Translations under genes and position numbers: made by a program
DNA from: Desulfoglaeba alkanexedens ALDC
GTDB lineage: Bacteria; Desulfobacterota; Syntrophobacteria; Syntrophobacterales; DSM-9756
Length of the DNA stretch: 64,000 bases
Direction: 5' to 3'
Assembly (NCBI RefSeq): GCF_005377625.1
Contig: NZ_CP040098.1
Span: forward strand, 1,791,501 to 1,855,500
Shown: positions 20,488 through 32,764 of the stretch, piece after piece
Layout: every line of letters begins with the position of its first letter
How positions within the stretch are numbered: position 1 is the first letter of the stretch
Notes under the pieces: generated by a model
Databases searched by the model: none
Told to the model about the DNA's origin: nothing
The model's input: the letters and a program-made list of their open reading frames with translations, nothing else

Positions 20488-20603
20488 AAATCCATCACAA
20501 AGGGCCCGAACAGGCCCTACTTCCTCGCATCGAGTATCGTAGCGAGGATCCCGGTCTTTACCCACAAAGATCACTTCGAGATCCTGGCCGGCTCTCTTCA
20601 GTC

Positions 20604-20640
20604 CCCTCCCCTTAATCCCCTGCCACAAGGGGAGGGGAAA
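20604..20640. repeat. CCCCTCCCC...GGGGAGGGG hairpin
   Basis: CCCCTCCCC and GGGGAGGGG can pair around a loop that contains CCACAA, the same loop-side sequence as in the larger hairpin at 17381-17442. It is probably a second member of that repeat type. Confidence 0.5.
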
Positions 20641-20724
20641 TAGAATCTGGCATCAAATATTAGGTCTGTTATTTTCTACCCTACCAGAATATTATCTTAA
20701 TGCACGTTAAGAAAGGGGTGGATG

Positions 20725-21066
20725 ATGCCACAGGGTGACGGCACGGGCCCATTTTGGGGCCAAGGAAAGGGAAGAGGACGTGGTGGTCAGGGCCGGAGGA
20801 TGGGACGGAGGATGGGACGTGGTCCCGGGGCCGGCCGAAGCGTCGGGCCAAGGGGTTGGCCATCCGGTTTTGGGTACAGGACCCAAGCGCCTGTCACAGC
20901 GGCTCCGCAGGTAGACCAAGAAAAGTGTGTTGGCTGCGGCGAGTGCGCCAAAGCCTGCTCGTTCGGAGCGATCTCCATTCAAAACGGAAAAGCAGTCGTG
21001 GCCCCGCAGCTCTGCCAGGGCTGTCGGGTTTGCGTATCTGCCTGCCCCAAAGGGGCCATCTCGTAG
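20725..21066 (+). CDS. 2[4Fe-4S] ferredoxin-like protein with Gly/Arg/Met-rich N terminus
   Basis: A 113-residue protein in two parts. Residues 1-60 are rich in Gly, Arg and Met and begin MPQGDGTGP, like the small DUF5320-type proteins seen near Mrp/NifB-like genes in anaerobes. Residues 65-113 carry two ferredoxin motifs, CVGCGECAKAC and CQGCRVCVSACP, which would bind two [4Fe-4S] clusters. The ATG at 20725 has AGGGG 6 bases upstream; the ATG one codon earlier is too close. The gene stands alone at the left edge of the accessory island. Its redox partner is unknown. Confidence 0.85.
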   Translation: MPQGDGTGPFWGQGKGRGRGGQGRRMGRRMGRGPGAGRSVGPRGWPSGFGYRTQAPVTAAPQVDQEKCVGCGECAKACSFGAISIQNGKAVVAPQLCQGCRVCVSACPKGAIS

Positions 21067-21207
21067 CGGGTTAACACATGGCTGGCGGAGAGGAGGCGAA
21101 ACCGCGAACTCACATCGGACGTTGGTTCATCGCGGCGAGGGCGCCGCTCCCACAATGGGCGCTGCTCCCACAACGGGCGGGGTTGTTTTTCTAGGAGCCG
21201 GCGCGCT

Positions 21208-22263
21208 CGGCCGATCCGCATCAAGGTGACTGCGTTTTCCCGGCGGATGAGGATGTCCGTGACCCAGGAAAACCGCAGAAGCCCCTTGGGAGTCACCTGC
21301 CAGTACTCGAGGAGGTTCACTCGAAGGTCGGGATGGGACTTGTTGAGAGGAAGGTCGTTCACGAAGCGGAAGTAATGGAGGGTTTCGGGGTTGTCTTCCG
21401 CTGCCTGCCAGAACTCCACAGCCCGGCCCTCGGCGATGGCCTCGTCGGCCTTTTCGAAGAGGAAGGCGTGATCGCTGGGTTTAACCCCTCGTTACAACGG
21501 CCGGCGGCGTTGCGTTCGCAGTCGTTTTTGGTGTCGCCGTCTTCTCTCTGCATCACTTCGGGGGGAAAGGGGATCACGGCCTTGTGGCCCGGGTGGACGA
21601 GGGCGGCTCCCATCATTTGCAGGGAATACGTGGTCTTGCCGGTGCGAGAGGTTTTTCGAAGGCAGGCGTCGGAAAAGACCTTTTCCGACGAAAATAGCCC
21701 GTGCCGTCCAGGGCCAGGATGTAGCGGCCGTCCAGCACGGTCATCTGAGCCAGCGCCTTGCCGCGCTGAAGCCGTGAGAAGATCTCGCGGAAGGCGGGTC
21801 GGAACACATAGGGCGAAACCTCATCGAGAATCTCCCCCATGGTGCTGTGGCAGGGATCTTCTCGATGTGGTAGAGCGCGTGCAGGTTGTGATCCCGAGCC
21901 GACCAGCGTTTCTCAAAGGCCAGAAGAGAGGGATCCTTCAAAGAAAACATGGCGAAGGCGCTCATGCCCGCATCCGCAAAGGAGATCTGCGGCCTGCCTT
22001 TGCGGGGATCGGGGATCTTTTCGAACTCACGGCGCACCGCTCTCACCAGGGCATCTGCATTCAGATGCTTGCGAAGTCGGATCTTGGAGGAAGGAGCGTC
22101 TTTGCTGGACTTCATGGCAAAATAGCCTACCAGAGACGCGGGCGGCTGTCCGGCATGAGACAGCAAAATAGTCGAAAAAATTCACCTCCGAAACCCCCTT
22201 CGGAGCCCGAAATCACCCCCTGGGTTCGCGAAAACCAAATCCTCCGAGGCCCGGTTTTCAAGG
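21208..22263 (-). pseudogene. Decayed copy of the DDE-transposase IS
   Basis: This segment is nearly identical to the intact IS between about 24213 and 25391, read on the minus strand. It is broken in several ways: the last ~110 codons are missing, a block of about 125 bases is lost near 21490, and there are small deletions near 21700 and 21850. The resulting reading frames are fragments only. It ends at the same point as the intact copy, against the same recombinase remnant. I infer that both arose by duplication of the IS together with the sequence to its right. Confidence 0.85.
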
Positions 22264-22379
22264 CTTTAGAGGGGCTCCAGAAATTGCTGAGACATACCGA
22301 CGTGAGAACCACAATGATTTATACGCATTGCATACCGAGGATGACGGCAAAAGAGGGAAAAAGCCCGCTTGATTTTTAA
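22264..22379 (+). pseudogene. 3' end of an integron-integrase-like tyrosine recombinase, copy 1
   Basis: The 116 bases encode the last ~36 residues, with KLLRHTDVRTTMIYTH and the ending GKSPLDF. Integron integrases typically end with ELLGHSDVSTTMIYTHV...RSPLD, so the catalytic histidine and the tyrosine nucleophile can be recognised. Everything upstream has been replaced by the IS. The stub runs in the same direction as the cassettes that follow, unlike classic integrons, where intI points away. It cannot make an active enzyme. Confidence 0.7.
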
Positions 22380-22488
22380 TGAGATACAATGATGAAAAAT
22401 ATAATTATAAACCAGGCATGTTTCTTGCTTTTATAGCTAATACGCATTTTTGTGTATTAGCCATAAAAAGCCGTTTAGCTAATAACTT
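22380..22488 (+). promoter_or_regulatory. Putative attI-side leader of the integron, copy 1
   Basis: AT-rich sequence between the recombinase stub and the first cassette. It contains the inverted repeat GCTAATAC / GTATTAGC and ends TAATAACTT immediately before GTT at 22489. Sequence matching the second leader (25508-25616) stops exactly after AACTT, so a recombination point lies there. Calling it attI is inference from position. Confidence 0.5.
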
Positions 22489-22489
22489 G

Positions 22490-22646
22490 TTCTCGGCGGC
22501 TGCGCCGCCGAGAATCGCGGTGCTGACTTCGTCAAGTACCTTGCGCTGGCGCCTTGCGCCAGAACAAGGTACTTGACCGGACACCGCACACCGATCAACC
22601 AGACTACGTCTGTTTGATCGGCGCACGGCGCCGGTCAGCACCGCGA
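22490..22646. repeat. Hairpin plus three-way-junction palindromic element, copy 1
   Basis: A perfect 11-bp hairpin (TTCTCGGCGGC, loop TGC) at 22490-22514 is followed by a 132-base element. The element's ends pair perfectly over 13 bases (TCGCGGTGCTGAC at 22515-22527 with its complement at 22634-22646). Between them are two further arms: one with a 12-bp stem TCAAGTACCTTG capped by CTGGCGC/GCGCCAG, and one with CCGATCAA/TTGATCGG capped by CAGAC/GTCTG. The whole would form a three-way junction as single-stranded DNA or RNA. A second copy is at 27448-27613. I do not recognise it. Confidence 0.85.
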
Positions 22647-22665
22647 TTGGCCTTGAAAAAGAACC

Positions 22666-22704
22666 TTGACAAAATGCCTTTTAGAATGTACAGATGAATG
22701 TACA
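22666..22704 (+). promoter_or_regulatory. Promoter and operator-like repeats of the Phd/VapC cassette
   Basis: TTGACA (22666-22671) and a weak TACAGA (22689-22694) are 17 bases apart. Two direct repeats of AATGTACA (22685-22692, 22697-22704), each holding the palindrome TGTACA, overlap the -10 box. Repressing complexes of toxin-antitoxin pairs usually bind such sites, so self-control is likely. The cassette therefore has its own promoter. Confidence 0.55.
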
Positions 22705-22721
22705 CTTGTGGGGGTATATCA

Positions 22722-22955
22722 ATGAAGACTATTGCTTTCACCGATTTTCGTAAAAGGGCTTCAGATTTAATAACTGAGGTAGAGCATGGGGAGACGCTTA
22801 TTCTTCTCAGGCGTGGAAAGCCCGTGGCTGAAGTAGTTCCGTTTTCTGACAGGGCACAAAGAATGCCAGCATGGAAACAATCAGGAATCCAGCTGCGTAT
22901 TCCCGGAGGCGATTTGTCCTCTGCTATTTTAGAGGAACGTGGGACGGCTCCATGA
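22722..22955 (+). CDS. Phd/YefM-type antitoxin
   Basis: A 77-residue DNA-binding antitoxin. The N-terminal half has the typical Phd/YefM pattern: FTDFRKRASDLITEVEHGE, then LILLRRGKPVAEVVP. The C-terminal part would wrap and block the toxin. It starts at ATG 22722 behind a GGGGG run, and its stop overlaps the start of the PIN toxin (ATGA). The gene lies in the first integron cassette and has its own promoter with operator-like repeats. Confidence 0.88.
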   Translation: MKTIAFTDFRKRASDLITEVEHGETLILLRRGKPVAEVVPFSDRAQRMPAWKQSGIQLRIPGGDLSSAILEERGTAP

Positions 22956-23392
22956 AACTGGCGGTTGATTCATCATCATTTGCTAAAAGGTATGTGCAAG
23001 AGGTTGGCAGCGACAAATTGGATGATTTTTTGGAAAGCGCTTCGGAGTTGGCTTTATGCGTTATTTTGGTGCCTGAAATAATTTCTGGCCTCAACAGGCG
23101 ACTGAGAGAACGCATTTTGACTATCGTGGACTATCGGACGGTAAAGCAGCAGCTGATGGACGATGTCCGTGATGCAACTGTTTTACAGATCACTCCTTCA
23201 GTAATCTCGCGTTCCGTAAAACTCTTGGAGGGCAATGCCTTACGAGCATTGGACTCTCTGCATGTCGCATGTGCTCTTGAGTGGCAGGCAGACCTGTTTG
23301 TAACCTCGGATAGAAGGCAATTTCTGGCTGCCACGAATGCAGGTCTTCGCACTGAATATATTGGCCAACCAGACGCTTCAGCCGACGGCTAG
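22952..23392 (+). CDS. VapC-like PIN-domain toxin
   Basis: A 146-residue PIN-domain ribonuclease, probably the toxin of the preceding antitoxin. The acidic metal-binding residues are visible in LAVDSSSFAKRY, in VPEIISGL, in RALDSLHVA and in FVTSDRRQF. Its stop codon lies inside the attC-like site, so the last residues are encoded by the recombination site, a usual feature of integron cassettes. Such pairs are often found in cassette arrays, where they are thought to stabilise the array. Confidence 0.88.
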   Translation: MKLAVDSSSFAKRYVQEVGSDKLDDFLESASELALCVILVPEIISGLNRRLRERILTIVDYRTVKQQLMDDVRDATVLQITPSVISRSVKLLEGNALRALDSLHVACALEWQADLFVTSDRRQFLAATNAGLRTEYIGQPDASADG

Positions 23393-23419
23393 TCGCCGCG
23401 GCTGAGCTTTTCGTTAGGT
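23363..23419 (+). other. attC-like site closing the Phd/VapC cassette
   Basis: Begins GGCCAAC and ends GTTAGGT, which fits the GTTRRRY end core. The inner arms TCAGCCG and CGGCTGA pair. The length (57 bases) is typical of attC sites. Confidence 0.8.
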
Positions 23420-23431
23420 TTGAGGACAACG

Positions 23432-23716
23432 ATGAGCACTACGTCCAAAGGAAATACGTTTGAGGACAGAGTGTACGGCTCGTTGGAGGTTGAACTAGAG
23501 AATGATCGGCTTTGCGTCTCCCCAAGAGCTGCAAAGATATTCAAGAAGAAGAGATACCACTTACAGGATAGGGATTCTGACATCATCACGGATATCTCCA
23601 TCGAAATCACTTTACCAGGTAAGGATAAGCCGTCTCTGATCTGGATATTCGAGTGCAAAGACTATTCTGGCAGCAATTCCCGGAGCGGATGGTCCTTGGG
23701 TGAAAAGCGGGCGTGA
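23432..23716 (+). pseudogene. PD-(D/E)XK nuclease-like gene truncated by the IS
   Basis: The reading frame starts just after an attC end (ATG 23432, behind GAGG) and encodes about 85 residues that look native. It includes DSDIITDISIEI and IWIFECKDYSG. The aspartate followed by an ECK motif resembles the active site of Mrr-like or related restriction-type nucleases. After about position 23675-23694 the frame runs into the IS and stops at 23716. The rest of the gene is not found on the far side of the IS, so the cassette was lost or rearranged. Confidence 0.65.
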
Positions 23717-25391
23717 AAGGAGAGTCTTCGAGTGTTCAGCGGGCCGTTTGGGGTGATCGAGGGTCCGAACGTCCCGTTGAGGGATGCCACCCGGAGCGTG
23801 AGGGGCTCAGATGCCCGGTTTGAAGGCGCACCTCCGCATCGGTTCTTCGGGTGAAAGGCTCAGGTTCTGCATGGGGTAATTCCTTTCTCCGCCCTACGAG
23901 GTGTTATAGGCGATGATCGGGGTCAGCCTTTTGTATCCGTAAAGAAGGGCCTCGTAGAGCATCCGGATGGACTCCAGGCGGAAGTCCCAGAACATGGCCC
24001 GGATCCTCTCCCAGAGGTCCCGTTTGGTTTGGAGCTTTCGCCATACGGCCTGAAACAGCGGGCAACACAGTTGGAGGCTCTGGTCCACGCAGAAGGCCAA
24101 CATCATGAGGGTGACGAAGACGGCGCTAAGGTGTTTTCGGCCCAGGCCGTAGTTGTGTTCGAGGTGGTAGCCCTGGTTTTTCAAGGTGTTGAAGGTTTCG
24201 TTTTCGATGCGCCAGCGTGCCCGGCCGATCCGCATCAAGGTAACGGCGTTTTCCCGGCGGATGAGGATGTCCGTGACCCAGGAAAACCGGATAAGCCCCT
24301 TGGGAGTCACCTGCCAGTACTCGAGGAGGTTCACTCGTAGGTCGGGATGGGACTTGTTGAGGGGAAGATCGTTGATGAAGCGGAAGTAATGGAGGGTTTC
24401 GGAGTTGTCTTCCGCTGCGTGCCAGAACTCCACAGCCCGGCCCTCGGCGATGGCCTCGTCGGCCTTTTCGAAAAGGAAGGCGTGATCGCCGGGTTTAACC
24501 GAAAGGACGAAGCGGCAGTCGAAGCGCTTGAGGGTTTCAATGTGGGGAGCGTTGGGACTGAGGGCATCTTCGGTCACGATGAGCTTGATATGGGGATGAT
24601 CGGTTCTCAGGTTCTCGTTACAACGGCCGGCGGCGTTGCGTTCGCAGTCGTTTTTGGTGTCGCCGTCCTCTCTCTGGATCACTTCCGGGGGAAAGGGGAT
24701 CACGGCCTTGTGGTCCGGGTGGACGAGGGCGGCTCCCATCATTTGGAGGGAATAGGTGGTCTTGCCGGTGCGAGAGGTTTTTCGAAGGCAGGCGTCGGAA
24801 AAGACCTTTTCCGACGAAAAATAGCCCGTGCCGTCCAGGGCCAGGATGTAGTGGCCATCCAGCACGGTCATCTGAGCCAGCGCCTTGCCGCGCTGAAGCC
24901 GTGAGAAGATCTCGCGGAAGGCGGGTCGGAACACATAGGGCGAAACCTCATCGAGAATCTCCCGCATGGTGCTGTCGGCAGGGATCTTCTCGATGTGGTA
25001 GAGCGCGTGCAGGTTGTGATCCCGAGCTGACCAGCGTTTCTCAAAGGCCAGAAGAGAGGGATCCTTCAAAGAAAACATGGCGAAGGCGCTCATGGCCGCA
25101 TCCGCAAAGGAGATCTGCGGCCTGCCTTTGCGGGGATCAGGGATCTTTTCGAACTCACGGCGCACCGCTCTCACCAGGGCATCTGCATTCAGATGCTTGC
25201 GAAGTCGGATCTTGGAGGAAGGAGCGTCTTTGCTGGGCTTCATGGCAAAATAGCCTACCAGAGACGCGGGCGGCTGTCCAGCATGAAACAGCAAAATAGT
25301 CGAAAAAATTCACCTCCGAAACCCCCTCCGGAGCCCGAAATCACCCCCTGGGTTCGCGAAAACCAAATCCTTCAAGGCCCGGTTTTCAAGG
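23694..25391 (-). mobile_element. Insertion sequence with DDE transposase, intact copy
   Basis: About 1.7 kb carrying one transposase gene. The right end is well placed at 25391, because the same junction with the recombinase stub occurs at 22263. The left end is less sure. CCTTGGGTGAAAAGCGGGC at 23694 is loosely similar to the complement of the right end (CCTTGAAAACCGGGC), so these may be imperfect terminal repeats. No target duplication is evident; recombination between IS copies would explain that. Confidence 0.75.
23894..25294 (-). CDS. IS transposase (DDE type, IS4-like superfamily)
   Basis: A 466-residue transposase. Acidic catalytic residues can be proposed in LALDGTGYF, in VTEDALSPN and in WRIENETFNTLKNQGY. 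The segment GYHLEHNYGLGRKHLSAVF after the last glutamate is characteristic of a group of IS4-like/ISNCY elements; the exact family is uncertain. The start may be 25294 or an internal ATG at 25243 (MKPSKDAPSSK), and neither has a strong ribosome site. The gene appears intact. A decayed copy lies at 21208-22263. Confidence 0.85.
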   Translation of the reverse strand: MLFHAGQPPASLVGYFAMKPSKDAPSSKIRLRKHLNADALVRAVRREFEKIPDPRKGRPQISFADAAMSAFAMFSLKDPSLLAFEKRWSARDHNLHALYHIEKIPADSTMREILDEVSPYVFRPAFREIFSRLQRGKALAQMTVLDGHYILALDGTGYFSSEKVFSDACLRKTSRTGKTTYSLQMMGAALVHPDHKAVIPFPPEVIQREDGDTKNDCERNAAGRCNENLRTDHPHIKLIVTEDALSPNAPHIETLKRFDCRFVLSVKPGDHAFLFEKADEAIAEGRAVEFWHAAEDNSETLHYFRFINDLPLNKSHPDLRVNLLEYWQVTPKGLIRFSWVTDILIRRENAVTLMRIGRARWRIENETFNTLKNQGYHLEHNYGLGRKHLSAVFVTLMMLAFCVDQSLQLCCPLFQAVWRKLQTKRDLWERIRAMFWDFRLESIRMLYEALLYGYKRLTPIIAYNTS

Positions 25392-25507
25392 CTTTAGAGG
25401 GGCTCCAGAAATTGCTGAGACATACCGACGTGAGAACCACAATGATTTATACGCATTGCATACCTAGGATGACGGCAAAAGAGGGAAAAAGCCCGCTTGA
25501 TTTTTAA
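25392..25507 (+). pseudogene. 3' end of an integron-integrase-like tyrosine recombinase, copy 2
   Basis: The 116 bases are almost identical to those at 22264-22379 and encode the same tail (KLLRHTDVRTTMIYTH ... GKSPLDF). The IS borders it at exactly the same base. It is a second non-functional stub in front of a second leader and a different set of cassettes. Confidence 0.7.
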
Positions 25508-25616
25508 TGAGATACAATGATGAAAAATATAATTATAAACCCGGCATGTTTCTTGCTTTTACAGCTAATACCCATTTCTGTGTATTAGCCAGAAAAAGCC
25601 GCTTAGCTAATAACTT
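25508..25616 (+). promoter_or_regulatory. Putative attI-side leader of the integron, copy 2
   Basis: Matches 22380-22488 with a few substitutions, then diverges after AACTT. Here the following bases make the palindrome GCTAATAA-C-TTATTAGC across the junction. The inverted repeat GCTAATAC/GTATTAGC of copy 1 is slightly altered. Role as attI is inferred from position. Confidence 0.5.
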
Positions 25617-25633
25617 ATTAGCGAGTATAGAAG

Positions 25634-26344
25634 ATGAGTTTTTCAGAATTTTTAAAAGATTTATCGATCATTGTAGCATCTTGCACCGCCATTTATGGGA
25701 TTGGTTCTTGGCGACGGGAATATGTTGGAAAAAAACGTGCTGAGTTAGCGGAAGAAGTATTGTGTCTGTTTTATGAAGCACGAGATGCGGTTCAACATAT
25801 CAGAAATCCTTTCAGTCACGGTAACGAGGGCAGCTCCAGAAAAGCAGCCGAAAATGAAACGCCAGAACAAAAAGAAGCGTATGATAGGGCTTACGTATTA
25901 TTTGAAAGATTCAATACACATATCGAATTGTTCAATAAAATGCATTCGATGCGCTATAGGTTTATGGCACAATTTGGAGTTGAGGCTGGGAAGCCATTCG
26001 ATGATTTCCGGCGGATTTTAAATAAAATGCAGGTTTCAGCTCAAGCTCTTGCTAGGGAATGGGCTAAAAAATATCATCATTTCAGAACAGAGGAACAGGA
26101 AGCATCTCACTTCAATTTTATCAAAGAACAAGAAAACATTTTCTGGGAAGGGCTCCCGGAAGAGGATACAATAAAACCAGAAGTTGAACGGTGTATTGAA
26201 AATATCGAGAAGATTTGTAGGCCAATAATTGACAACAGATCAGTGTTTACCTCGGTAAGCAAAATCAATTTCTTGCGAAAGTTATACGGGAAATTCGCTA
26301 ACAAGATTAATTCAGCCGACGCAAAAAGCCGCGCGGCTGATTAG
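25634..26344 (+). CDS. Cassette-encoded hypothetical protein (236 aa)
   Basis: I do not recognise this protein. It begins with a hydrophobic stretch (about residues 8-24, LSIIVASCTAIYGIGSW) that could be a single membrane anchor. The remaining ~200 residues are charged and mostly helical, with a cysteine pair near 189 and 195. The last residues (NSADAKSRAAD) are encoded by the attC site, as in other cassettes. The gene is AT-rich compared with the chromosome. It is the first cassette after the second leader; the start at 25634 lies 18 bases from the junction. Confidence 0.7.
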   Translation: MSFSEFLKDLSIIVASCTAIYGIGSWRREYVGKKRAELAEEVLCLFYEARDAVQHIRNPFSHGNEGSSRKAAENETPEQKEAYDRAYVLFERFNTHIELFNKMHSMRYRFMAQFGVEAGKPFDDFRRILNKMQVSAQALAREWAKKYHHFRTEEQEASHFNFIKEQENIFWEGLPEEDTIKPEVERCIENIEKICRPIIDNRSVFTSVSKINFLRKLYGKFANKINSADAKSRAAD

Positions 26345-26355
26345 CGCCGTTATGC
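26296..26355 (+). other. attC-like site after the 236-aa cassette
   Basis: Starts CGCTAAC and ends GTTATGC. The arms TTCAGCCG and CGGCTGA pair, and the length is 60 bases. The right core departs from GTTRRRY at one base. Confidence 0.75.
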
Positions 26356-26388
26356 TCAAAAGATGAAGGACAAGAGGGAGGTGGGTTC

Positions 26389-26787
26389 GTGATAAATACA
26401 TCAGGTAAAAAAATGTTTGAAATTGCAGGACATTTAAAGGAACTGGACAAATATGGCAAAGTTAAAGGGCTTCAAGGAAACGAGAAAGGCTATGCCAAAA
26501 TAATCGAAATTTGCCGAGGTTGTTCTGTCTAGGTTCATCATTTGCGCAGCGACGATCTAATAATCGATGTTATGGTTTCTCATTCTGCTCGTAAGAATAA
26601 TCCCGCATTGTGCGATAGCACTGTCAAAAAATTTGAAGATTTTTTCGGTAGTCCAGTTAAAAAAACAAAATGGAACCATTCTATAGATCAGAATTATGAA
26701 TACGAGCGGTACTATACTGTTGTGAATGACAAGAAAACGGCGGAGATAATTGATATAGTAGATAATATCAAGAAACTATTCGCATAA
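26389..26787 (+). pseudogene. Cassette gene with an in-frame amber codon
   Basis: A GTG at 26389 with a strong ribosome site (GGGAGGTG) opens a frame of 47 codons that ends at TAG 26530-26532. The same frame then stays open for another 84 codons to 26787. The two halves (MFEIAGHLKELDKYGK..., and LIIDVMVSHSARKN ... DIVDNIKKLF) read as one ~131-residue protein of unknown function. The simplest view is a single stop mutation in a cassette gene. A sequencing error, or read-through as pyrrolysine, cannot be excluded, but nothing in the window supports the latter. Confidence 0.6.
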
Positions 26788-26839
26788 CCATCGGTTGCAG
26801 GCGACCGCTGAAAGCGGCGCCTGAACCGTAACGTTAGCA
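26782..26839 (+). other. attC-like site
   Basis: Begins GCATAAC and ends GTTAGCA. The long arms CGGTTGCAGGCGACCGC and GCGGCGCCTGAACCG pair with interruptions. The length is 58 bases. Confidence 0.75.
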
Positions 26840-26860
26840 TAAATAAAAAAGGAGGGGACA

Positions 26861-27442
26861 GTGAGCGAAGAAAATAAAAAATGTCCATTTTGCGGTGAAG
26901 AAATTTTATCGGTCGCAGTAAAATGCAAACACTGCGGGGAATTTCTAAATAAGGCTGCTTCTCCACTTCAAAACCAAGATAGAAATAATGACGTGGAAAA
27001 AACATTATGGGAAGGCCATCCATCACATTACTATTATTTATTTGCTTACATAATCGGGGGAATATTAATCTTAGGATCTGGCTTAGGATTGCTGGTTATT
27101 CTTATCGCAATTCTTGATAGAAAATGCAAAATATTCACTATAACAAACAAAAGGGTGAAATCAAAGAAAGGGATAATTTCTCGCTCGATCCATGAGGTTT
27201 TCATCAAAGATATACGAAGCGTAAATGTACACCAAAGCATTCTAGAAAGGTTATTTAATTTGGGTACCGTTAATATAGGAACGGCCGGTACAGCAGGCAT
27301 TGAAGTTTCATTCAAGGGGGTATCGGAAGCACCAGAGATTAAAGAAAAAATACAAAAATTAAGAGGGCAACACTATATGCTAACAACTTTATCCAGCGGA
27401 GGCAAACCGCCGGCTCTTCAAGCCGTCGGCTTGCGCCGCTGA
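26861..27442 (+). CDS. Cassette-encoded zinc-ribbon membrane protein with bacterial PH-like domain
   Basis: A 193-residue protein. Residues ~8-28 form a zinc ribbon (CPFCGEEI ... CKHCGEFL). A hydrophobic region (about 50-90) forms one or two membrane helices. The region after it (KIFTITNKRVKSKKGIISR, VFIKDIRSVNVHQSILERLF, LGTVNIGTAGT) matches the pattern of bacterial PH (bPH_2/DUF304) domains. The start is GTG at 26861 behind GGAGGGGA. The C-terminal residues (GGKPPALQAVGLRR) are encoded by the attC site. Function is unknown. Confidence 0.75.
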   Translation: MSEENKKCPFCGEEILSVAVKCKHCGEFLNKAASPLQNQDRNNDVEKTLWEGHPSHYYYLFAYIIGGILILGSGLGLLVILIAILDRKCKIFTITNKRVKSKKGIISRSIHEVFIKDIRSVNVHQSILERLFNLGTVNIGTAGTAGIEVSFKGVSEAPEIKEKIQKLRGQHYMLTTLSSGGKPPALQAVGLRR

Positions 27443-27456
27443 TGTCGGCGTTCCTC
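27378..27456 (+). other. attC-like site, long form
   Basis: Begins TGCTAAC and ends at GTT (27450-27452). The arms CCAGCGG...CCGCTGATG pair, and a central GCCGGCTC/GCCGTCGGC region adds length, giving 79 bases. The right core reads GTTCCTC, because the next cassette begins with a hairpin. Confidence 0.65.
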
Positions 27457-27613
27457 CGGACGCGCTTCGCGCGTCCGGAGGAACGCGGCGCTGACTTCGT
27501 CAAGTACCTTGCCCTGGCGCCTTGCGCCAGAACAAGGTACTTGACCGGACGCCGCACACCGATCAACCAGACTACGTCTGTTTGATCGGCGCACGGTGCC
27601 GGTCAGCACCGCG
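27448..27613. repeat. Hairpin plus three-way-junction palindromic element, copy 2
   Basis: A perfect 18-bp hairpin (arm GCGTTCCTCCGGACGCGC, loop TTC; 27448-27486) leads into a copy of the 131-base junction element. The two inner arms match copy 1 except for one or two bases, and the outer stem has a single mismatch. The hairpin in front is unrelated in sequence to that of copy 1 but has the same position, a perfect stem and a 3-base loop. As in copy 1, it starts at the GTT where a cassette begins. Confidence 0.85.
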
Positions 27614-27654
27614 ATTAGGCGCATGAGAACCATCGTGGGACCTGGGAGCGAGTG

Positions 27655-29622
27655 ATGCTGACCACACCCATATTCCGACCGTGGCGGCCCCTCTGGGACG
27701 CCCAGCTCGCCGACGCGACGCGGCAACTCGATGAACTTGCAAAGGAGCGACAGAAAGGGCGCCAAGTACCGCCGCCGGTACACGACTGGTCCGATGCTCA
27801 GCGCGTCCTTCTCGCAGCACATTTGGCTAAAGGGCGGGTGTCCTCTGTCAAGTTCATGCAGGATAAGATCGAACCGCTTCTCAAAGCGTGCGTGTGGCCC
27901 CGCTGGCTTCTTCTTGAAGCAGCCCTCGACCATGCCGCGACTTCGGGCGATCTTCACCTGAGCGCACTCATCCTTCGAAGTCAGATCGAGGAACTGGATG
28001 CCCTGCGGACCGTCGCCATAGTTCTGTCGTGCCGAGAACAGGGTTCTTGGAACGCTGAGGCCATGGCCAATGCGATTCAGACTATGACCAAGCGTGTCCT
28101 ACCAAGGCTGGAGACCAAAACAGACGAACAGCTCATTGAACAGGCCACTGATGCGGCCACCGCTGCTACACGTTCCGAACCTCTCCAGCGGGTCTTCGAC
28201 CGGCTCAGCGAATACGTCCACCCGAACTACGGCAGTCACGTCCTGACGGTGCGCCCACATGGCGTCGAGGCCGCCAAGGTTTTCGTCGAGGCCTTCGTGT
28301 CGATCTACGAAGCGTTCCTTTCCCTTCCGTGGGCGAAAGATGGCGATGATAGTCGCGAAGAACCGACACAGCGGGGCCAAACAGATTCACGAGATCCGTA
28401 CCTTATCCTGGCGGACGATACCATCCCGACGCTGAAGCCGGCGTTCCCGGGCGTTGGGGAGAAGAAATGGGACGATGCCGCCGAGTGTTTCCGTCACCGT
28501 GCGGCCTGCGAGAACAACTGGGCCGCTCTAGAGGACTTACCGACTGATATCGAAGCAATCCGCGCCCTGAGCGCGAACTCGGTTCCGTCAGATTCTTGGC
28601 CGGAGGCTCTCAGAACAGTTGCAGGCCAAAACAGGTATGCGTTCCTCGTCGCGCAAGAACACCGACTTGCTCAAGATGCCGCGCACCTGGTTGCCGGAAC
28701 CGGCCTGTGCGATGACAAGGAACGGCTCTCGGTTTTGGTGTTGGTGTCCGGCTTGAACTTTGCGATCAACGTGACCGAGCACAAACTGGATTTGCTGGCA
28801 CGTCAGGCAGCGCGATTGATCAATGCGGAGAATGTGCTCGGGGCGACTCTGGCCGTCCGGTCAATGCTCGAGCATCATGCCGTAGCGATCGAGTTGGGTG
28901 ACAAGTTGCGAGCACTGTGGGAACGGGCGGAGAAAGGCGCCCCGAACGCGCCTCAAGTCGCCGAGGCGTTCGCGGAGGCGGAGAAGCAAATCGCTCGCGT
29001 ACTCGCGGGGAGTTCGCAACCGTCGGAGGTATCGTCATCCTGGCGAAGCCTGTGGCAGGAAACCATTCGGAGGCCCTACAACGTCCTCGGACCCGTCAAG
29101 GCCCTGGATGCCGCACAGCCCGGGTTCCTGAAGACCTATGGACTCCTTTCACACATTGTTCATGGAACCGTGTGCACCGGGGGTGACCTCCTCGGCACGC
29201 GTTCCGGTGGTTCGAAGGCCGGACACCCAATGCTCGCGCAGTTGATCCTCAACCTTGCACGACTCTGCGACACCGATGCGATCCTGGATCGACAGGCCGT
29301 GTCGATGACCGTTGCGCATCGGCTCGATGTCCTACGGCGCGACCCGAGCGGGCTTGGAGAGCGCATCAAAGCGATGAACCTTCTCGAAGGGCAGAAACTG
29401 AAGCCCGGTCGAGATATCTTTGGGTCTGGAACCGCGAATGATCCGTACCGCTTCCGGGACGGGCTCCTCTATCACGACGCCTACTATCACTACTTGGCAC
29501 AGGAAGGCATCCAGGTGCGTAATCGCAGGCTCGAGCAGCTTAGCGGCGGGTTCGGCGATCGGGTCGAGGCGGAAGACGGCCGCGTACTCTACTTTCTGAA
29601 TGACAAGCTGCATCTGCAATGA
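27655..29622 (+). CDS. Large cassette-encoded protein of unknown function, internally duplicated
   Basis: A 655-residue soluble, helical protein I cannot assign. Two halves share a pattern: LILRSQIEELDALR with LSEYVHPNYGSHVL near residues 105-205, and LAVRSMLEHHAVAIE with LSHIVHGTVCTGG near 405-510. R-S-x-x-E followed by a V-H motif is reminiscent of DUF5677/HEPN-like helical proteins, so a tandem duplication of such a domain is possible. It is GC-rich, unlike the AT-rich cassettes around it. ATG 27655 follows GGGAG by 6 bases. It sits directly after the junction element. At nearly 2 kb it is large for a cassette. Confidence 0.75.
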   Translation: MLTTPIFRPWRPLWDAQLADATRQLDELAKERQKGRQVPPPVHDWSDAQRVLLAAHLAKGRVSSVKFMQDKIEPLLKACVWPRWLLLEAALDHAATSGDLHLSALILRSQIEELDALRTVAIVLSCREQGSWNAEAMANAIQTMTKRVLPRLETKTDEQLIEQATDAATAATRSEPLQRVFDRLSEYVHPNYGSHVLTVRPHGVEAAKVFVEAFVSIYEAFLSLPWAKDGDDSREEPTQRGQTDSRDPYLILADDTIPTLKPAFPGVGEKKWDDAAECFRHRAACENNWAALEDLPTDIEAIRALSANSVPSDSWPEALRTVAGQNRYAFLVAQEHRLAQDAAHLVAGTGLCDDKERLSVLVLVSGLNFAINVTEHKLDLLARQAARLINAENVLGATLAVRSMLEHHAVAIELGDKLRALWERAEKGAPNAPQVAEAFAEAEKQIARVLAGSSQPSEVSSSWRSLWQETIRRPYNVLGPVKALDAAQPGFLKTYGLLSHIVHGTVCTGGDLLGTRSGGSKAGHPMLAQLILNLARLCDTDAILDRQAVSMTVAHRLDVLRRDPSGLGERIKAMNLLEGQKLKPGRDIFGSGTANDPYRFRDGLLYHDAYYHYLAQEGIQVRNRRLEQLSGGFGDRVEAEDGRVLYFLNDKLHLQ

Positions 29623-29678
29623 TCCTCGGGCGAATCGGCGTCGGTACGTCGATCAAGACCCGATTTCTGCACAGCACC

Positions 29679-29742
29679 GCCTAACAACCGGTTGCAGCGG
29701 ACGGTCCGCTGCGCGGCTCGCCGCTGAACCGGAGCGTTGGCC
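29679..29742 (+). other. attC-like site after the 655-aa cassette
   Basis: Begins GCCTAAC, a perfect RYYYAAC core, and ends GTTGGCC. The arms CCGGTTGCAGCGGACGG and CTCGCCGCTGAACCGG pair with a bulge. The length is 64 bases. It lies 57 bases after the stop codon. Confidence 0.82.
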
Positions 29743-29784
29743 GGGGCACATGGACATCACTACGAATAATGGAGGAAAGGCATA

Positions 29785-30111
29785 ATGGAAAAGGCAGTAT
29801 GGATGAGCTTCGACCTTGGAGTCAGGGGCGATTATGAAGGCTTGTACGCATGGCTTGACTCAAAAAAAGCAATTGAATGTGGAGATAGCCTTGCATTTTT
29901 TAAATATGATGTTTCAGAGGATATTGTTGAAAGCCTTGAGAAGGAAATCAAAGAAAATGTGGAAATAAACAAGAAGACACGTATTTATGTAATTTTCCGT
30001 GATGCCAAAACAAAGAAAATGAAAGGAAAATTTATTTTGGGCAGTAGAAAAACCGCTCCTTGGGCTGGATATTCAGGTAGTCAGGAGCAGACGGAAGAAG
30101 AGGAGCTATAG
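29785..30111 (+). CDS. Cassette-encoded small protein paired with a PIN-domain gene
   Basis: A 108-residue acidic/basic protein of unknown family. Its N terminus (WMSFDLGVRGDYEGLYAWLDS) and the motif ECGDSLAFF are distinctive. The tail is glutamate-rich. ATG 29785 follows GGAGGAAAGG. It ends 3 bases before the PIN gene, so the two are one unit. That layout suggests an antitoxin or partner of the nuclease, although no DNA-binding motif is obvious. Confidence 0.7.
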   Translation: MEKAVWMSFDLGVRGDYEGLYAWLDSKKAIECGDSLAFFKYDVSEDIVESLEKEIKENVEINKKTRIYVIFRDAKTKKMKGKFILGSRKTAPWAGYSGSQEQTEEEEL

Positions 30112-30114
30112 CTG

Positions 30115-30534
30115 ATGGAATATGCTCTTGCTGACACAGGTGTGTGGTACGGGATATTTGATAGCCGAGATCCAAGGTATAATGAAGCACAGTCAAAGAT
30201 TGAATTCTTTGACCTTTTGACGATAGTGATTCCATGGCCTACGGTTTATGAAACACTCCGAACTCGTTTTGTGAGAAACAGATCTGGTCTTCAGCTATTT
30301 GAGATATTTTTGAAAACCCATCCTATTGTGTATATTGACGACGATATTTACAAAAATGAGGCTCTTGACCTATCCATAGAATCCTCATTGCGAAAAGGAA
30401 GACCACTCAGCATGGTAGATTGTTTACTTAGGTTGATTATTGATGATCCAAATGTAAAAATAGATTACCTATTAACCTTTAACCAGCCTGATTTCATCGA
30501 TGCATGTAGAAAGAATCGTGTGGAGATGTTGTAA
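30115..30534 (+). CDS. PIN-domain protein (VapC-like)
   Basis: A 139-residue protein with PIN-domain features: ALADTGVWYGIFD at the N terminus, a TVYETLRTR segment with the second acidic residue, LSMVDCLLRLI with the third, and LLTFNQPDFIDAC at the end. It probably cuts RNA as a toxin, controlled by the preceding 108-residue protein. Sequence similarity to the first PIN toxin of the array is low, so they are separate acquisitions. The gene is AT-rich. Confidence 0.75.
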   Translation: MEYALADTGVWYGIFDSRDPRYNEAQSKIEFFDLLTIVIPWPTVYETLRTRFVRNRSGLQLFEIFLKTHPIVYIDDDIYKNEALDLSIESSLRKGRPLSMVDCLLRLIIDDPNVKIDYLLTFNQPDFIDACRKNRVEML

Positions 30535-30537
30535 GAC

Positions 30538-30595
30538 TGCCAACCAAACCTTGAACCGGACGCAAAAAGACGCGCCGGTTAAGGTTGCGTTCGCC
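30538..30595 (+). other. attC-like site
   Basis: Begins TGCCAAC and ends GTTCGCC. The arms AACCTTGAACCGG and CCGGTTAAGGTT pair well. The length is 58 bases. The right core departs from GTTRRRY. Confidence 0.78.
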
Positions 30596-30664
30596 ACTAA
30601 CCTGCTTTTGACATTCGAGAAGGTAGATGGTACTTTTTAAACAAAATTAAGAGGAGCTTACATC

Positions 30665-30883
30665 ATGCAGAATACGTTCGAAATACGACATCTTTCCAAA
30701 GAAGAGAAGCTTAGAGTGATGGAGGCTATTTGGGAAGACCTATCAAAAGATGGTGAGGAAGTAGAATCCCCCAAGTGGCATCAGGAGGCTCTTCAGGAAA
30801 CAGAGGAACGGCTAAACTTGGGAGAGGAAAAGATGGTTGATTGGCATACTGCAAAAAAAGACCTCCGGGAAAGATTCCAATGA
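30665..30883 (+). CDS. RelB-like addiction-module component
   Basis: A 72-residue protein. LSKEEKLRVMEAIWEDLSKD, followed by SPKWHQEALQETEERLNLGEE and a tail DWHTAKKDLRERF, matches the small addiction-module component family that usually sits before a RelE/ParE toxin. ATG 30665 follows GAGGAG. Here the next gene does not resemble RelE, so its partner is uncertain. Confidence 0.78.
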   Translation: MQNTFEIRHLSKEEKLRVMEAIWEDLSKDGEEVESPKWHQEALQETEERLNLGEEKMVDWHTAKKDLRERFQ

Positions 30884-31071
30884 AAATCAAGATACGGAGA
30901 TCGCATGTCCAGTCAATTGACTATATTGAGGAAGATCATATGCAACGACTTCTTCGCGCTTTCGTTTCAAAAGATCTGTACCCAAGTGAAATAATACCTG
31001 TTTCAATTCATCCAACTACGCGTCAACAAATTAATTTCCGACTTAAAACAGGAAGCTTCATATATGGATAA
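30880..31071 (+). CDS. Cassette-encoded small hypothetical protein
   Basis: A 63-residue basic protein (MKIKIRRSHVQSIDYIEE ... RQQINFRLKTGSFIYG) that overlaps the RelB-like stop by 4 bases (ATGA) and the DUF2283 start by 8 bases. Tight overlap suggests co-translation. It lacks the RelE toxin residues. I cannot assign a function. Confidence 0.55.
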   Translation: MKIKIRRSHVQSIDYIEEDHMQRLLRAFVSKDLYPSEIIPVSIHPTTRQQINFRLKTGSFIYG

Positions 31072-31297
31072 AACAAAGATGGCATATTCTAAAGATGAAG
31101 ATGTTCTGCATATAGTTGTCTCTGAGGGAAAAGAAGCAGACAGTATTGAGTTGAGCCCAAATATTACGGCTGAGTTGAATGAAAGCGGTGAATTAATTGG
31201 TATAGAAATATTAAAGGCAAGTTCTTTTCTCCGCGATACAATATTGGAATCGTCGCAAGCCAAAATACTTAAATTAAAAAAATCGTATAACAATTAA
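31064..31297 (+). CDS. DUF2283 family small protein
   Basis: A 77-residue protein of the DUF2283 type: YSKDEDVLHIVVSEG, then SIELSPNITAELNESGELIGIEILKASSFL. The family is common beside small toxin-like genes and is sometimes treated as an antitoxin, without firm evidence. It is the last gene of a three-gene overlapping unit in the final recognisable cassette, and its stop lies inside the attC site. Confidence 0.8.
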   Translation: MDKTKMAYSKDEDVLHIVVSEGKEADSIELSPNITAELNESGELIGIEILKASSFLRDTILESSQAKILKLKKSYNN

Positions 31298-31341
31298 ATC
31301 CAGCGGATGGCTTGCACCCCCGCTGATTTAAGCCGTTGGGT
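31285..31341 (+). other. attC-like site, last in the array
   Basis: Begins GTATAAC and ends GTTGGGT, a perfect GTTRRRY core. The arms ATCCAGCGG and CCGCTGATT pair. The length is 57 bases. Beyond it comes an IS remnant rather than another cassette. Confidence 0.8.
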
Positions 31342-31462
31342 CGATTAAAAAGAAAGTCAATTTATACCAAATACGGTGGAGGCCCCCTGTGTCAGGGTAG
31401 TTGTCGTAATGATCTGAATCCATCTATAATTGAGCATCTTGGGGGCGATGGAGGATCGGATC

Positions 31463-31979
31463 ATGCGATATTCCAAAGAGCGTAAAGAAGCTGTTCTGAA
31501 AAAGATGATGCCGCCGCACAACCGGTCGATCATCGAGCTGGCCAAGGAGGAAGGCATCAGCGAGGCTGCTCTGTACCTCTGGCGCGGGCAGGTGCGTGAG
31601 CGGGGGCTGCTGCTCGACTCGGATAGAGCACCCGAGGGCTGGAGCGCGCGGGACAAGTTCAATGCCGTTGTTGAGAGTGCCGCCATGAACGAGTCCGAGC
31701 TGGCCGAGTACTGTCGCCGGAAGGGGCCGTATCCCGAGCAGTTGGCCCCACTGGCGCAGGAACTGCGAGACGGCCGACGACTGGGACCGCGAAGTGAACC
31801 GCCGGCTGAAAAGCGAGCAGAAGGCCGATCGCAAGCGTATCCGCCAGGTCGAACGTGAGCTGCACCGCAAGGAAAAGGTACTGGCCGAGAGCTCTGAGCG
31901 TTACGGCTTCCACCTCGACCAAACCGTGGTCCAAGGCTATGGCGTTTGCGACGCTTGTCGACGAAAGGAGGCAAGATGA
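31463..31979 (+). pseudogene. Truncated, frameshifted IS3-like transposase orfA
   Basis: MRYSKERKEAVLKKMM, IIELAKEEGISEAALYLWR, EGWSARDKFNAVVESAAMNE and AEYCRRKGPYPEQL are typical of an IS3-type orfA. Near 31750 the frame shifts: the continuation WRRNCETADDWDREVNRRLK is found in another frame. The C terminus is also scrambled and no orfB follows. It ends inside the region where the metallo-beta-lactamase gene begins. It marks the right border of the cassette array. Confidence 0.75.
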
Positions 31980-32764
31980 GAGGGTTTTTAATCGGTAATC
32001 TTTTCCTTCTGGCACCCCTGTATGGGGCGGCTTCCGCCGCCGAGTCCGTACGCCTTACCATCCTCTACGATAACTATTTGTCCAACGAGAGCCTGCACAC
32101 CGCCTGGGGCTTTTCCTGCCTGGTGGAAGTGGGTAAAAAGACGATCCTCTTCGACACCGGGGGAAGCGCCGAAATCCTCCTCTCCAACATGGCGACCCTC
32201 GGGATCGACCCGGCCCGGATCGAGATCGTGGTTCTCTCTCATATTCATGGCGACCACGTGGGGGGTCTTTCCGGCGTTCTTGAGCTGAACAATTCGGTAA
32301 CAGTCTACCTCCCCGCCTCTTTTCCGAGTTATTTAAAGGATCAGGTCAGGGCCCACGGAGCTTTGGTCGTAGAGGTGCGAGGTCCCACGGAGATCGTTCC
32401 CGGCGTTTGGTCCACCGGCGAGATGGGAACCTGGATCAAGGAGCAAGGATTGGTGGTGCAAAGTTCCAAGGGACTTGTGGTGATCACCGGCTGCGCCCAC
32501 CCCGGGGTGGTGAACATAGTCGGAGCGGCGAAGCAAATTGCTGACCAGGAGGTTCACCTTGTGGTCGGGGGATTTCACATGTTCGGGATGTCAAAAGCCC
32601 AGGTTCAGTCCGTCATCAACGCCTTCCAGAAGCTTGGGGTCCACCAGGTTGCCCCCTGCCACTGTTCCGGTGACCTCACCCGAGACCTTTTCCACGCGGC
32701 CTATGGTGCCGGTTTCTTTCCGGCTGGTGCCGGCTGGTCCATCGATCTCAGACCCAATCCTTGA
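31976..32764 (+). CDS. Metallo-beta-lactamase-fold hydrolase with signal peptide
   Basis: A 262-residue protein with an N-terminal signal peptide (residues 1-22, ending near ASAAES). The MBL metal motif is visible as HIHGDHVGG, followed by GCAHPGVVN, GGFHMFG and CHCSGD. The pattern resembles proteins annotated as dihydropteridine-related phosphate synthases in archaea and anaerobes, but the substrate is unknown. An export signal is unusual for that group. ATG 31976 follows AAAGGAGG, and the start overlaps the end of the IS3 remnant. The high GC content suggests a chromosomal gene rather than a cassette. Confidence 0.82.
   Translation: MRGFLIGNLFLLAPLYGAASAAESVRLTILYDNYLSNESLHTAWGFSCLVEVGKKTILFDTGGSAEILLSNMATLGIDPARIEIVVLSHIHGDHVGGLSGVLELNNSVTVYLPASFPSYLKDQVRAHGALVVEVRGPTEIVPGVWSTGEMGTWIKEQGLVVQSSKGLVVITGCAHPGVVNIVGAAKQIADQEVHLVVGGFHMFGMSKAQVQSVINAFQKLGVHQVAPCHCSGDLTRDLFHAAYGAGFFPAGAGWSIDLRPNP

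Follow-up and report, generated by a model that had tools for sequence, protein, structure and literature searches.

The gene examined here lies on the forward strand of the window, by which we mean the whole 64,000-nucleotide stretch of Desulfoglaeba alkanexedens ALDC that was analysed, and is the only gene of its integron cassette (Table 1). Its open reading frame (ORF) has a GC content of 60.1% (GC3 67%), which is host-like compared with the 58% of the window, though high among cassettes: the other cassette genes measured have 38-44% (five neighbours) or 49% (the gene encoding a PIN domain). The description of a long, GC-rich cassette gene in the earlier note is therefore confirmed, as are the two motif pairs it had read, RSQIE with YVHPNYGSH and RSMLE with IVHGTVCTGG, which stand as written at R108-E112 and H189-H195 in the N half and at R402-E406 and H503 in the C half of the protein.

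Table 1 Features of the cassette, its surroundings and the encoded protein (window positions)
Feature	Positions	Strand	Basis and remarks
Integron integrase remnant, C-terminal end, upstream of the array	25403..25501	+	TIGR02249 positions 282-313, E 2.7e-5
attC of the preceding cassette	27378..27456	+	bottom strand folds, z -4.1
ORF-less multi-hairpin element ('junction element'), 164 bp	27451..27614	+	directly before the cassette of the 655-aa ORF
Gene cassette with the 655-aa ORF	27615..29736	+	read from sequence; exact left edge putative
ORF, 655 aa, putative tandem DUF5677/HEPN-like domain protein	27655..29622	+	ATG start; relatives align end to end
N-terminal helical domain, residues 65-222	27847..28320	+	AlphaFold2 model; invariant R83 W84 E88 R108 H189 N191 Y192 H195
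RSQIE motif, N half, R108..E112	27976..27990	+	R108 12/12; E112 11/12, D in one
HPNYGSH motif, residues 189-195, end of helix 175-188	28219..28239	+	12/12; motif used to find relatives
C-terminal helical domain, residues 355-562	28717..29340	+	AlphaFold2 model; invariant K377 R402 E406 W463 H503
RSMLE motif, C half, R402..E406	28858..28872	+	R402 and E406 12/12
H503, end of helix 491-503 (S-x3-H-G)	29161..29163	+	12/12
Small C-terminal beta-containing domain, residues 576-655, GRDxFGxGTxxDPY	29380..29619	+	model strands 598-649; 10-row alignment
attC of the cassette of the 655-aa ORF, GCCTAAC ... GTTGGCC	29679..29742	+	bottom strand folds, -23 kcal/mol, z -3.4

The assignment as an integron gene cassette is based on a single ORF with attC-like folds on both sides, in an array located behind integrase remnants. 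The edges of the cassette fall between GCGA and TTAGGC, after the ORF-less element, and between GGAGCG and TTGGCC, where the cassette extends to the G of the attC core site. Six attC-like sites were tested as folded single strands, and z scores of -2.1 to -6.0 were obtained for five of them and of only -1.35 for the one at 26299-26360. A second C-terminal fragment of an integrase is found at window positions 22275-22373. Since the integrase match is a fragment only, mobility of the cassette today appears doubtful. The segment containing a transposase ORF and the integrase C-terminal fragment is duplicated (window 21201-22500 and 24215-25615; 95-99% identity, four repeat families), and on account of this duplication the integron seems to possess two attI-like starts and a broken integrase. 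The main part of the multi-hairpin element has four further genomic copies (91-96%) and two partial copies, the element at about 22499-22646 being counted among them. Several copies were seen by eye to lie directly behind attC or attI, and the ORF-less elements have the appearance of cassettes lacking a gene, in which the structured recombination site is very long. Rfam gave no match over window positions 20500-32000.

Neighbouring cassettes carry toxin-antitoxin-like genes and genes without assigned function, none of them a known defence system. The PIN domain gene is located at 22871-23392 (Pfam E 1e-9), and two pairs appear toxin/antitoxin-like by eye, at 29785-30534 (without Pfam support) and at 30665-31297. 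The cassette gene at 26861-27442 combines a zinc-ribbon start with a bacterial PH domain (bPH_2, E 9e-17), and its frame enters its own attC. Window ORF 25634-26344 also reads into its attC, ending in SADAKSRAAD.

Single-sequence comparisons left the protein isolated: a scan of genome contigs yielded 49 pattern stretches and no relative, a scan of 297 genomes of its own phylum retrieved only the window protein itself, and a PDB search with the 655-residue protein gave nothing convincing. Relatives were found by running over the genome collection a degenerate DNA pattern that encodes HPNYGSH flanked by a hydrophobic residue on either side. Of the 25 genome stretches obtained, eleven encode proteins of 584-778 aa that can be aligned over their full length with the window protein, at 20-28% identity; the translated frames of the other 14 were read and dropped as chance, being short frames or unrelated contexts. 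HPNYGSH is invariant by construction of this search, the remaining invariant residues being independent of the pattern, and members lacking the motif would escape the genome scan. The relatives span six phyla and come from Rhizobium, Mesorhizobium, Acetobacter and a Sphingomonadales MAG, from two Chloroflexi MAGs, a Myxococcaceae MAG and a 'Deltaproteobacteria' MAG (Myxococcota in the tree listing), and from a Planctomycetaceae MAG, an Akkermansia-labelled MAG and Alicyclobacillus. The label Akkermansia muciniphila (G401, locus L052/L080) is doubtful, as 7.3 Mb seems too large for this species. The Mesorhizobium relative (L046:4638-6389; G397:C210:44701-46734) has a frame of full length but for a single in-frame TAG and is, from its sequence, probably a decaying copy or an assembly error.

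With a 12-member profile, matches were confined to one of 395 genomes of the window's own phylum, one of 299 of the Rhizobium phylum, one of 246 of the Planctomycetaceae phylum and one of 241 in one Chloroflexi phylum, in each case only the seed genome, and the genomes of the 11 relatives have one family match each. Fragments at E <= 0.5 occurred in 33 other genomes of the 395; the 11 loci inspected lacked the motif pair, and these fragments were treated as chance. The queries used retrieved no relative from viral contigs, from 50,697 phage records or from 72,556 plasmid records, and the one match of a first viral pattern scan was chance. Curated family cut-offs were reached by none of the 12 family proteins, and no PADLOC 2.0.0 model matched any of them at E <= 1. 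Matches of NCBIfam Shiga toxin A-subunit models to residues 117-178 (at most 15 bits against cut-offs of at least 600) were attributed to chance, and two PHROGs families (E 0.23 and 0.48) were rejected. Literature searches found nothing on HPNYGSH and only an unrelated paper on DUF5677. Judged by these sequence comparisons, this is a rare, horizontally spread and so far unnamed bacterial family with two similar, predicted helical domains per protein.

Across the 12 members 25 alignment columns are invariant, comprising R83, W84, L87, E88, A104, L107, R108, L184, H189-H195, P201, Y218 and F221 in the N half and K377, R402, E406, A409, L450, W463 and H503 in the C half. That the two halves are related, as the earlier note had it, is not significant in direct comparison, where a Smith-Waterman score of 33 stands against a shuffle mean of 33.9 and 269 of 500 shuffles score as well; the argument is carried by a spacing repeated throughout the family of 12 and by a parallel helix order. 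In both halves a basic residue precedes the invariant arginine by 25 residues (R83 to R108, K377 to R402), and a glutamate follows at +4. The resulting pattern [RK]-x24-R-x3-[ED], chosen after the data had been seen, is present in 12/12 N halves and 12/12 C halves, compared to 3/10 DUF5677 proteins and 31/215 decoy ORFs. The position four residues before the histidine is occupied by S or N in all 12 N halves; in the C halves it is S in 10 members and C in 2. Profile-profile comparison of the N and C halves gave a weak match (E 0.029, probability 1.7%), in the correct register. Because both halves share this pattern, a later helix with the histidine and the same element order, the internal duplication suggested by sequence and model is probably real.

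The whole protein was modelled with AlphaFold2 using the 12-row alignment (pTM 0.86, pLDDT 79). The model comprises two helical domains with the same order of elements (A-B-insert-C-D), followed by a small C-terminal beta domain. Helices span residues 82-97, 100-128, (134-145), 175-188 and 204-222 in the N domain and 355-390, 394-427, (432-451), 491-503 and 524-538 in the C domain. In both modelled domains the arginine and the acid are placed on the second helix, and the histidine ends or directly follows the third. This parallel order of elements would make the two domains a structural repeat. Structure prediction, proposed in the earlier note as a check, has thus returned two domains of parallel helix order, but no HEPN match for the model as a whole. 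Foldseek with the whole model against PDB and BFVD produced no match at E <= 0.001, and the best VIA-align hit was a designed protein (Z 5.5). Among the matches listed for the whole model none was recognisable as a HEPN chain, which is no proof of absence. Low-confidence matches of Foldseek and VIA-align to transporters, designed bundles and tape-measure proteins were set aside as common helical arrangements; in PDB profile searches, Bcl-xL at E about 1 (DUF5677 profile) and a single chain at E 2 (family profile) were rejected.

DUF5677 (PF18928) is the only Pfam family to match more than one of the 12 members. It does so below threshold in three (the N half of L047, E 0.095; the C halves of L049 and L059, E 0.12 and 0.15), and the best score of the 12 members, 13.2 bits, does not reach the cut-off of 27.1 bits. 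Running the DUF5677 model over the 12 genomes placed the family gene among sub-threshold matches in 3/12, beside other weak matches, with none over the cut-off. The HHpred-type check of the halves that had also been proposed gave a divided answer with hhalign, the C half aligning to DUF5677 with E 7.3e-4 (probability 26%) and the N half with E 0.04; the motifs were in register. Against 430 decoys (215 ORFs and their reversals) the DUF5677 profile separated the C halves with an AUC of 0.98 and the N halves with 0.90, and a C-half profile scored the N halves with an AUC of 0.95, all three values being descriptive, as the rows are related and not independent. C halves scored with the DUF5677 profile surpassed their own reversed versions in 12/12 cases as well as all 20 block-shuffled sets; the mean of the N halves, -3.44, lay below the best of 20 shuffled sets (-3.20). 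In the reciprocal direction, DUF5677 proteins surpassed their reversed versions in only 5/10 cases with the N-half profile and 4/10 with the C-half profile, and neither mean was above all 20 block-shuffled sets.

Ten DUF5677 frames were fetched, with lengths of 256-362 residues and one model match each. From them we read the motif order R-[ST]-x-x-E, then S/N-x3-H, which is not an official definition; both halves of the window family follow this order, with R-x3-[ED] in 12/12 and a later histidine in 12/12. Relatives of DUF5677 were sought as well: the viral contigs contained no conserved stretch, and the plasmid searches returned 2 and 0 records. One DUF5677 protein from another genome of the phylum (L020:1336-2166) ends in ADAKCRAAD. 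This end is close to the SADAKSRAAD of window ORF 25634-26344, and because of the resemblance DUF5677 genes may also travel as cassettes. Overall, motifs, motif order and profile scores speak for the doubled DUF5677-like helical domain that the earlier note had suspected, although it stays below every curated threshold.

As set out in PMC3710099, HEPN domains have four core helices, with an acid conserved in helix 2, an insert between helices 2 and 3 and a conserved histidine at the end of helix 3; the RNase motif is Rx4-6H at the end of helix 3, and HEPN proteins are associated with defence. A further characteristic of the superfamily is metal-independent endoRNase activity. In the window family the acid of helix 2 corresponds to E112 (11/12, D in one) on helix 100-128 and to E406 (12/12) on helix 394-427. 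The motif Rx4-6H is not conserved, being present in 5/12 at H189, 1/12 at H503 and 8/12 at H407, within helix 2. In the window protein it reads R183-x5-H189. The HEPN likeness thus extends to helix order and to the placement of acid and histidine, but neither to a conserved Rx4-6H nor to a matched HEPN structure. Read from the alignment, the family is outside HEPN by the Rx4-6H motif; it may work like HEPN all the same. We infer homology to DUF5677/HEPN and consider it likely that each half is a domain of this kind.

To place the family in its genomic context, up to 20 kb was fetched around each of the 11 relatives, and 20 of the 90 neighbour ORFs (at least 150 aa), chosen by eye, were compared with Pfam. 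Nine of the 11 relatives have a defence or conflict gene close by. On the same strand as the Rhizobium relative, a Shedu gene (SduA_C, E 5e-31) lies about 70 nt upstream, and in one Chloroflexi MAG the relative is inserted on the same strand between genes for an N6_N4 methylase/DUF559 protein and a ResIII helicase, with gaps of about 12 and 6 nt. DruA (3e-33) lies upstream of the Mesorhizobium relative, which is accompanied by two HATPase_c_3 proteins, and an AAA_15/AAA_21 protein is encoded upstream in the Akkermansia-labelled MAG. In the Myxococcaceae MAG the relative is followed by GmrSD and then by a TIR plus SLOG protein, while the other Chloroflexi MAG has an SNF2-type helicase and a C5 methylase at most about 8 kb away. 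Alicyclobacillus encodes an AAA_30/UvrD-type helicase upstream and GmrSD_N, Acetobacter a HEPN_RiboL-PSP protein upstream (E 1.2e-5, just under the model's cut-off) together with HsdM, and the 'Delta' MAG a Zeta toxin nearby. The Planctomycetaceae MAG has a sub-threshold TOTE primase match only (E 0.0066), and around the Sphingomonadales relative, whose neighbours were outside the Pfam scan, no defence gene was noticed.

PADLOC at 1e-10 gave 279 families from the 90 neighbour ORFs, compared to 49 from 125 control ORFs, the latter, among the matches listed, being mostly UvrD-type helicase models. The controls came from other regions of the same 11 genomes, chosen by contig number and position before reading; in four genomes, where the region first picked was missing or of insufficient length, another took its place, and L092 and L098, both short, were left out. 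The earlier note had taken the position behind the junction element as the mark of a candidate defence gene. The gene's own cassette position gives no such support, but the neighbourhoods of its relatives do, and we think it probable that the window protein defends against phage.

We propose that the gene represents a new family of single-gene antiphage effectors with two fused DUF5677/HEPN-like domains, a reading to which we give a probability of roughly 45%. A single-gene effector fits because this is the only gene of its cassette in the window. On the molecular level, a four-helix DUF5677/HEPN-like domain would have been duplicated within each protein, with a small beta domain behind the two copies, and these copies would probably pack together as a built-in pseudo-dimer. 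R108/E112 and R402/E406 on helix 2 would then face H189 with the HPNYGSH loop and H503 at the end of helix 3. Phage might be sensed, perhaps through the C-terminal beta domain, whereupon the protein would act on RNA, by binding or cleavage, and stop the infected cell. That the window protein is an RNase is a guess that we hold tentatively. Unlikely in its full detail is the most specific version, a single-gene antiphage family, spread over at least six phyla and mobile as an integron cassette too, in which the two fused HEPN-like domains together make up an RNase within one chain, its active site relocated (arginine and acid on helix 2; histidine and the HPNYGSH loop after helix 3), and are joined to a small beta sensor domain.

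The absence of a conserved HEPN catalytic motif is equally what would be expected of a defence-associated but non-catalytic protein that binds RNA, DNA or a partner and serves as sensor, scaffold or specificity factor for an adjoining nuclease or helicase; binding of this kind is also assumed for inactive HEPN domains. The partners of the relatives vary in keeping with such a role (Shedu, DruA, methylase/ResIII, AAA_15, GmrSD), and one relative's gene sits between methylase and helicase genes. As the sole gene of its cassette, however, the window protein would have to act alone or with unlinked partners, and its dense invariant polar residues (R, E, H, N, Y, H) resemble an active site, so that we regard a non-catalytic role as unlikely, though worth keeping in view. 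An active site of another kind would be present if the protein belonged to a novel helical enzyme fold, unrelated to HEPN or DUF5677, in which HPNYGSH served as active-site loop and two short motifs had come to resemble those of DUF5677 by convergence. The lack of any significant match to a known fold or profile is in favour of this. Against it, each half agrees with DUF5677 in the two motifs, in their sequence along the chain and in the layout of its helices; DUF5677 matches 3/12 members, and C halves score above 12/12 reversed versions and all 20 block-shuffled sets, so that we consider convergence rather improbable.

The least probable explanation in our estimate is an ordinary stress or metabolic cargo gene on mobile islands, its association with defence genes being hitch-hiking. 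Two of the 11 relatives without a convincing defence neighbour, and a window array of toxin-antitoxin-like genes and genes without assigned function, would suit such a gene. Against it, family genes of several phyla lie close to defence genes on the same strand, and PADLOC matches are far more numerous than in control regions. Where the libraries searched had offered no recognisable family, the protein can now be placed among 11 full-length relatives, with its invariant residues mapped and its structure modelled. If the effector function holds, the family would be a defence family absent from the 2023 PADLOC set and an example of a long, GC-rich effector moving as an integron cassette. A connection between HEPN-like effectors and DUF5677, itself uncharacterised, would likewise follow if the proposal is true.

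In comparison with known systems, the window family differs from the antiphage proteins known to PADLOC in having no model match, yet its relatives lie in the same islands. It resembles DUF5677 in R-[ST]-x-x-E on a long helix and S-x3-H ending a later one, in an all-helical domain of similar size, and departs from it by two copies per chain, HPNYGSH and the C-terminal beta domain. As in HEPN, a helix 1 is followed in the model by a helix 2 with the acid, an insert, a helix 3 ending in histidine and a helix 4; unlike in HEPN, the invariant arginine is on helix 2, Rx4-6H is not conserved and there is no structural match. HEPN_SAV_6107 (PF18726) gives a single weak Pfam match, to residues 395-455 of the window protein, far under the cut-off (E 0.94, 10.5 against 27.2 bits). 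Cas13-type effectors carry tandem HEPN domains in one chain, and by analogy the two HEPN-like domains in each chain of the window family would give a composite site.
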